From contig LGEZ01000011.1 in the NCBI GenBank assembly GCA_001508005.1, positions 1 through 62,638 on the forward strand: 62,638 nt of DNA, read 5' to 3'. This document shows, in pieces, positions 60,894 through 62,638 of this stretch (positions are counted from its first letter, which is position 1; each line of letters begins with the position of its first letter). The notes beneath the pieces were generated by a model. The model worked only from the letters and a program-made list of their open reading frames with translations, was not told the origin of the DNA and ran no database searches. A program made the translations under genes and the position numbers. The stretch is from Clostridia bacterium 41_269 (GTDB lineage: Bacteria; Bacillota; DTU086).

Positions 60894-60918
60894 AAAAGCA
60901 CCTAACAAAGGTGCTTTT
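60894..60918 (-). terminator. Terminator after gin
   Basis: Stem AAAAGCACC/GGTGCTTTT, seven-base loop; minus-strand tail TTTTTGTTTA. The repeat fragment abuts it at 60920. Confidence 0.8.
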
Positions 60919-60919
60919 A

Positions 60920-60978
60920 GAATGTCGACAAGCCCTCTATTTTACCAGGCCTCTGCTGCGGTTTGCAAAACGATTTAT
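60920..60978. repeat. Fragment of the structured repeat element (left end only)
   Basis: It starts GAATGTCGACAAGCCCTC, then CTCTGCTGCGGTTTGC and AAACGA, aligning with 62274-62333 and then diverging. Like the full copy it begins straight after a terminator hairpin. The matching right arm is absent, so it is a remnant. Confidence 0.75.
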
Positions 60979-62167: not shown

Positions 62168-62245
62168 AATAATCTCCCCTTTACCGGAAACAAAAATTTT
62201 TATAATTTTTATTCCCGGCAGGGGAAGACTATTACAAAAATAAAA

Positions 62246-62271
62246 AGGCTCCTCTTTTTCGGAGGAGCCTT
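62246..62271 (-). terminator. Terminator on the left of the structured element
   Basis: Stem AGGCTCCTC/GAGGAGCCT-type (minor offset), minus-strand tail TTTTTATTTTTG. It shares its stem sequence with the hairpin at 62537-62565 on the other side of the element. It would end transcripts entering from the 5S rRNA side. Confidence 0.82.
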
Positions 62272-62273
62272 CA

Positions 62274-62529
62274 GAATGTCGACAAACCCTCTTAAGTAAA
62301 TCTTAATAGGTCTCTGCTGCAGTTTGCGAAACGACTTAACAAGCGCTGGCTAACAGCTCTTGGCAAAGCGTAAGGCAAAACCGGGAGGCGCGAATAGGAT
62401 GTGAGCGCCAGCCCCAACCTGAGACAGGACGTCGAATTTGGGGCGGTCCGCTTTTGCCCATAACCCTTTGCTTAGAAATGTCCAGTGCGAGTTCAGGAGT
62501 AAGAAAACTGCAGCAGAGACTTTTTGTCA
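62274..62529. ncRNA. Structured repeat element, complete copy (candidate RNA or MITE-like element)
   Basis: Nested complementary pairs: GACAAA (62281)/TTTGTC (62523); GTCTCTGCTGCAGTTT (62310-62325)/its exact complement (62505-62520); GCGCTGG (62343)/CCAGTGC (62482); GCAAAG (62363)/CTTTGC (62466); GGCAAAA (62374)/TTTTGCC (62452); ACCG (62380)/CGGT (62444). Inside lie two hairpins, GGCGC/GCGCC and CCCCAA/TTGGGG. That is a long rod ending in a junction. No ORF. Strand of any transcript is unknown; it is flanked by terminators on both sides. Confidence 0.7.
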
Positions 62530-62536
62530 ACAAGCT

Positions 62537-62565
62537 AAAGGCTCCTCTAAAATAGAGGAGCCTTT
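62537..62565. terminator. Terminator between 5S rRNA and the structured element
   Basis: Thirteen-base-pair stem AAAGGCTCCTCTA/TAGAGGAGCCTTT with loop AAA. It follows the 5S rRNA on the minus strand (short tail) and has five Ts on the plus strand. Confidence 0.75.
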
Positions 62566-62577
62566 TTAAAAGGGTTC

Positions 62578-62638
62578 TGGCAGCGACCTACTCTCCCAGG
62601 GGCTCTCGCCCCAAGTACCATCGGCGCTGGAGGGCTTA
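62578..62638 (-). rRNA. rrf: 5S ribosomal RNA, 3' part
   Basis: The reverse complement reads GGTACTTGGGGCGAGAGCCCC, then TGGGAGAGTAGGTCGCTGCC, the conserved 3' half of 5S rRNA (partly quoted). The 5' half lies beyond the window. This marks the 3' end of an rRNA operon. Confidence 0.93.

Follow-up and report, generated by a model that had tools for sequence, protein, structure and literature searches.

A repeat in a Clostridia bacterium that is very probably a terminator-targeting MITE of the IS1182 type with a TwoAYGGAY-like body

The window, that is the whole stretch of 62,638 nucleotides analysed here (contig LGEZ01000011.1 of Clostridia bacterium 41_269, assembly GCA_001508005.1), closes with a 5S rRNA gene. 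Directly downstream of this gene lies a complete copy of a short repeat, at a site which looks like an rRNA operon terminator (Table 1). A preliminary description, made from the letters of the window, had placed the element at 62274-62529; we found it there, with true limits a few bases wider. A second copy at the start of the window (described as 1-151) and a left-end remnant (described as 60920-60978) were recovered as well. The complete copy starts with CAG and finishes with CTA, and other copies read CAG...CTG. It contains a single ORF of 65 codons, a length of chance size, which we did not count as a gene.

Table 1. Coordinates of the features in the window.
Feature	Position	Strand	Remarks
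Right part of another copy, truncated by the contig end	1..152	+	its terminator hairpin then at about 153-177
Left-end remnant of a copy	60918..60977	+	preceded by terminator hairpin 60895-60917
Duplicated terminator hairpin, left side, AAGGCTCCTCTTTTTCGGAGGAGCCTT	62245..62271	.	27 bp, of which 21 match the right-hand hairpin
Complete MITE	62272..62537	+ (strand of the TwoAYGGAY model)	266 bp; basis: TIRs, flanking hairpin duplication, about 25 genome copies
Left TIR, CAGAATGTCGACAAA	62272..62286	+	basis: pattern counts given in the text
Perfect 16-bp stem, 5' arm	62310..62325	+	
Rfam RF01731 (TwoAYGGAY) match, full model	62336..62495	+	43.7 bits (gathering 43)
First apical hairpin loop, AATAGGATGTGAG	62393..62405	+	GGA loop, CsrA-site-like
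Second apical hairpin loop, GACAGGACGTC	62423..62433	+	GGA loop, CsrA-site-like
Perfect 16-bp stem, 3' arm	62505..62520	+	
Right TIR, reads TTTGTCAACAAGCTA on +	62523..62537	-	one mismatch to the TIR pattern
Duplicated terminator hairpin, right side, AAGGCTCCTCTAAAATAGAGGAGCCTT	62538..62564	.	
5S rRNA gene	62575..62638	-	3' end adjoins the right hairpin copy

The inverted ends of the element follow the pattern CAGNNTGTNNACAAA. We counted this pattern and its reversed control in four genomes and obtained 27 versus 3 in the home genome, and 20 versus 0, 41 versus 2 and 115 versus 1 in the others, the last two being distant Bacillota genomes. Both the nested fold and the perfect 16-bp outer stem of the preliminary description held. 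The minimum free energy of the element was -108.7 kcal/mol, compared with -72.6 +/- 4.3 for shuffled sequences (z = -8.4). The complementary strand was nearly as stable (-108.0, z = -7.3); therefore the fold alone is no proof of an RNA, and a long imperfect inverted repeat describes it.

The element had also been described as abutting terminator hairpins. The hairpins do adjoin it, and the relation goes further than abutment, as one hairpin is duplicated, with a copy on each side. In the window pair the stem is conserved and the loop differs between the left and right copies. We observed that most copies were flanked on both sides by the same terminator hairpin and that the hairpins varied from copy to copy. 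A direct flank duplication was detected in 48 of 53 elements with both ends (12-35 bp, median 23, 90% identical). It was a single closed hairpin in 43 of these 48, compared with 2.8% of windows taken at random from those loci, and its length tracked the span of the hairpin (Spearman 0.86). The T-tract after the right copy or the A-tract before the left copy was kept in 43/48.

By BLAST, the home assembly (1.67 Mb) contains approximately 25 copies, and there are further copies in the congener (G001) and in G002, which represents a second genus of the same family. Several contigs begin or stop within a copy, the contig of the window among them. In the home genome one copy (L010) sits between two ACTGCTTCTTAGGAAGCAGTTT-type hairpins, and at the orthologous place the congener has one uninterrupted terminator, AACTGCTTCTTAGGAAGCAGCTTTTTTTT, with its T-tract. 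This is an exact empty site of the kind that the preliminary description had proposed to look for in relatives. At other sites the element was present in both species. The element is thus a MITE: it is short and noncoding, has TIRs, duplicates its target, occurs in many copies and is missing from an empty site. In the genome G113 the same ends, with the same hairpin duplication, enclose an unrelated body of 142 bp.

Stationary structured RNA genes could also become numerous, amplified by recombination rather than transposition, and the strong fold and the TwoAYGGAY match would suit such genes. However, each site duplicates a different hairpin, an empty site exists, and the same ends carry unrelated bodies in other genomes. 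The empty site and the duplications refute amplification of stationary genes, and we give it practically no credence.

Further MITE families with the same ends and hairpin duplication are shorter (L119, L122, L128 in G113 with 142 bp, and L127 in G120 with 116 bp). A still shorter element, in Thermoactinomyces sp. DSM 45892 (L160:2537-2595), has 59 bp and is made up of just the two inverted repeats with a terminator-like hairpin between them; the hairpins on its left and right flanks differ. For 25 of 31 copies in the home genome and the congener (L001-L049), the gene on the right points toward the element. G120 had another pattern, the upstream gene pointing at the element in 14/20. Such bias may reflect which transposon end joins which side of the terminator; since the two patterns differ, an argument for an RNA cannot rest on orientation. 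A 6S RNA gene (114.5 bits) lies near one copy (L002:2335-2520, minus strand).

We searched for autonomous elements with the same ends. Plasmid NZ_CP085391.1 of Cytobacillus firmus carries a complete IS with the same TIRs, and an exact 35-bp hairpin is duplicated around it. Its transposase matches NF033551 (IS1182) with 444 bits against a cut-off of 270. The same combination of ends, hairpin duplication and IS1182-family transposase was detected in Peribacillus, in Sutcliffiella, in ISEfa7 of Enterococcus faecium and in a Streptococcus suis phage. In the clostridial genome G178 an IS1182 transposase ends at CAGAGTGTTGACAAA beside a terminator, where one end was seen. The suggestion that the repeat is a MITE targeting terminators was therefore strongly supported by what we observed, namely the TIRs, the hairpin duplication, the copy number, the empty site, and the IS1182 transposases of relatives with the same ends. 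We conclude, with a probability of nearly nine in ten, that it is a non-autonomous DNA transposon which depends on an IS1182-family DDE transposase acting in trans, and that terminator palindromes are its targets.

Three results count against this conclusion. A transposase of the NF033551 (IS1182) type was not found in the assemblies of the home genome (G000) or the congener (G001). Two plasmid IS (L302 and L304) have unlike hairpins on their two sides, which means that duplication is not universal or was lost later, and IS1272 deletes its hairpin. As to the first of these, further ends bearing this TIR occur in the home assembly. Each has an inner terminator of its own and breaks off approximately 88 bases in, at a contig end, and two pairs of these contigs have one terminator in common. 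Ends arranged in this way are what a multi-copy IS collapsed in a short-read assembly would leave. We infer that only the ends of the IS were assembled and that its IS1182 transposase is present in the home genome. Similar broken ends lie next to terminators in many Bacillota genomes. No intact IS was found in 44 genome contigs bearing one IS end, because assemblies break inside the repeat, and it was plasmid records that gave the complete IS. A scan of viral contigs yielded only matches with no adjacent terminator. The autonomous IS ends in L155, L182, L198 and L301 carry their own terminators, and some of them consist of the terminal repeat and an internal inverted copy.

A transposase of the IS1202 family was considered as another mobiliser. 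Elements of this subgroup have TGT...ACA ends and target duplications of 16-28 bp, and their specificity is described as unknown (PMC10132070); the TIR of our element includes TGT and its duplications are similarly long (PMC10132070). The length of the target duplication fits, but the transposase and the ends do not. There was no match to NF033594 (transpos_ISNCY_2) in the home genome or its three closest relatives, such transposases in other genomes have different ends, and in the complete IS whose ends do match, the transposase is of the IS1182 family. The IS1202 family is largely refuted as mobiliser and we regard it as highly improbable. Group IIC introns, which also occur at terminators, were dismissed by reasoning, since they make no target duplication.

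For the IS1182-type transposon we propose the following mechanism. An IS1182-family DDE transposase would recognise the ends CAGNNTGTNNACAAA and act in trans on the MITE; it would be supplied by the home genome's own unassembled IS, with CAGACTGTCGACAAA ends. The 3' ends of the transposon would be joined to the two 5' feet of the hairpin extruded as a cruciform, and repair would then duplicate the entire stem-loop. Of the two tracts, the A-tract would remain beside the left hairpin and the T-tract beside the right one. As the tracts are divided between the copies, transcription arriving from either side would pass the near hairpin, which lacks a tract, run across the element and end at the far terminator, which is intact. 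One intact terminator per direction would thereby remain, insertion would be nearly harmless, and host promoters would transcribe the element. Its body would be a TwoAYGGAY-type foldback captured between IS1182-type ends in the home family and in G120, and probably in G161.

No match at the Rfam gathering score was found in the window for raiA, ROOL, GOLLD or HEARO, and matches to mir-392 and to leader models, far under their gathering scores, were disregarded. The match to TwoAYGGAY was stronger in other copies (51.8, 69.7 and 65.2 bits) and reached 73.6 in the congener. The loops of the window copy are AUAGGAU and ACAGGAC, and some congener copies have AUGGAC. TwoAYGGAY matches were identified in 26 of 200 sampled Bacillota genomes, often ten or more apiece. 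IS1182-type ends were found on the copies of the home family and G120, and probably G161, and were absent in most of the other genomes, where some copies have different inverted outer arms. The TwoAYGGAY sequence has therefore multiplied in more than one way. In G178 the copies have different outer inverted arms and no IS1182-type ends, and one of them (L230, G178:C8:74502-75461) is seemingly nested within the arms of another.

The structured RNA that the preliminary description had considered thus has a basis in the match of the body to RF01731, while its single copies decay. The body might be a functional RNA with two CsrA-binding sites, a sponge, riding on MITEs, and insertion at terminators would place such an RNA in 3' untranslated regions, transcribed and cleanly terminated. 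TwoAYGGAY was put forward as a CsrA-binding RNA in the RMfam paper (PMC4333381), and GGA is present in both loops as well. We detected csrA in 25 of 26 genomes bearing the element and in 111 of 174 without it (Fisher test with kinship ignored, p = 0.0005), but this co-occurrence could come from shared ancestry, and one genome with ten copies (G182, 94% complete) had no detected csrA. G182 was the sole sampled genome with TwoAYGGAY matches of which this was true. Of 25 genomes compared, 23 had the TwoAYGGAY strand as the more stable of the two strands, by -9.6 kcal/mol on average, although outside the home family copies were mostly gathered with a strand-specific model, which is itself a selection. 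The difference between the strands suggests long-term selection at the RNA level. Wobble asymmetry by columns was weak. As for covariation, we counted 58 double-changed cells, compared with 29 +/- 5 in shuffles, but the number of covarying pairs was reached in 80 of 500 shuffles.

Copies at two orthologous fixed sites speak against a working sponge. Their identity was 79% and 74%, which does not exceed that of the flanking genes, and the changed pairs were broken in one or both genomes in 19/26 and 29/39 cases, respectively. Fixed orthologous copies thus decay like neutral DNA. Within a genome the GGA loops showed scarcely higher conservation than the remaining unpaired bases, and there was no consistent strand preference relative to genes. 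We consider it rather unlikely that the body is a functional sponge. The simplest account that we infer is a structured RNA under selection in the long run, the mobile copies of which are mostly dead on arrival, as SINEs are.

Targeting of palindromes by IS1182 relatives is known already. We found neither duplication of the whole hairpin at many sites nor TwoAYGGAY as the cargo of a MITE in the searchable literature, outside which lie most subscription journals and ISfinder; the link between TwoAYGGAY and MITEs appears to be new. Duplication of an entire target stem-loop is documented here at many independent sites, and in searchable papers it was previously a drawing of a model. It explains how such elements can fill the terminators of a genome and not abolish termination. 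Part of TwoAYGGAY, which Rfam lists as a cis-regulatory family and to which no function is assigned, is reclassified as mobile DNA, which affects the counts and functional guesses built on its hits. If the RNA binds CsrA, Bacillota gain a candidate CsrA sponge. That a candidate CsrA-titrating RNA has become the cargo of terminator-seeking mobile elements is a long shot on the present data. Were it true, new copies would be 3'-UTR RNAs driven by host promoters and cleanly ended by the duplicated terminator, and a post-transcriptional regulator would spread through a genome in this way, with no genes broken.

We compared the element with known systems. Like Rfam RF01731, it has a long stem topped by two apical hairpins with GGA, and full-length matches above the gathering score were obtained for the window and for many copies; Rfam and the discovery paper present RF01731 as a candidate RNA, whereas in our element the sequence forms the body of a mobile repeat. 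The loops in the window, AUAGGAUG and ACAGGACG, are one base longer than AYGGAY, and several congener copies have CAUGGACG. Sponge RNAs of the CsrB/RsmY type likewise carry GGA in hairpin loops, and csrA is present in the genome, but the candidate described here has just two sites and is multi-copy mobile DNA. The ISMac2 MITEs of Methanosarcina acetivorans (PMC3852290) are also short non-autonomous derivatives of the IS1182 family; unlike for our element, terminator duplication is not described for them in the passage on them in that paper. The element also resembles the IS1182 family itself (ISEfa7, IS1272). The transposase of its autonomous relatives is IS1182 (NF033551), and palindromes and terminators serve as targets according to reports on IS1272 and statements about some other IS1182 members (PMC4923244, PMC5678879). 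With IS1272, the stem-loop is deleted or replaced and no duplication arises (PMC4923244, PMC5678879), whereas here the entire stem-loop is doubled. Duplication of the whole stem-loop had been drawn only as pathway b of the model in PMC5678879, and our hairpin-duplication data fit this pathway.
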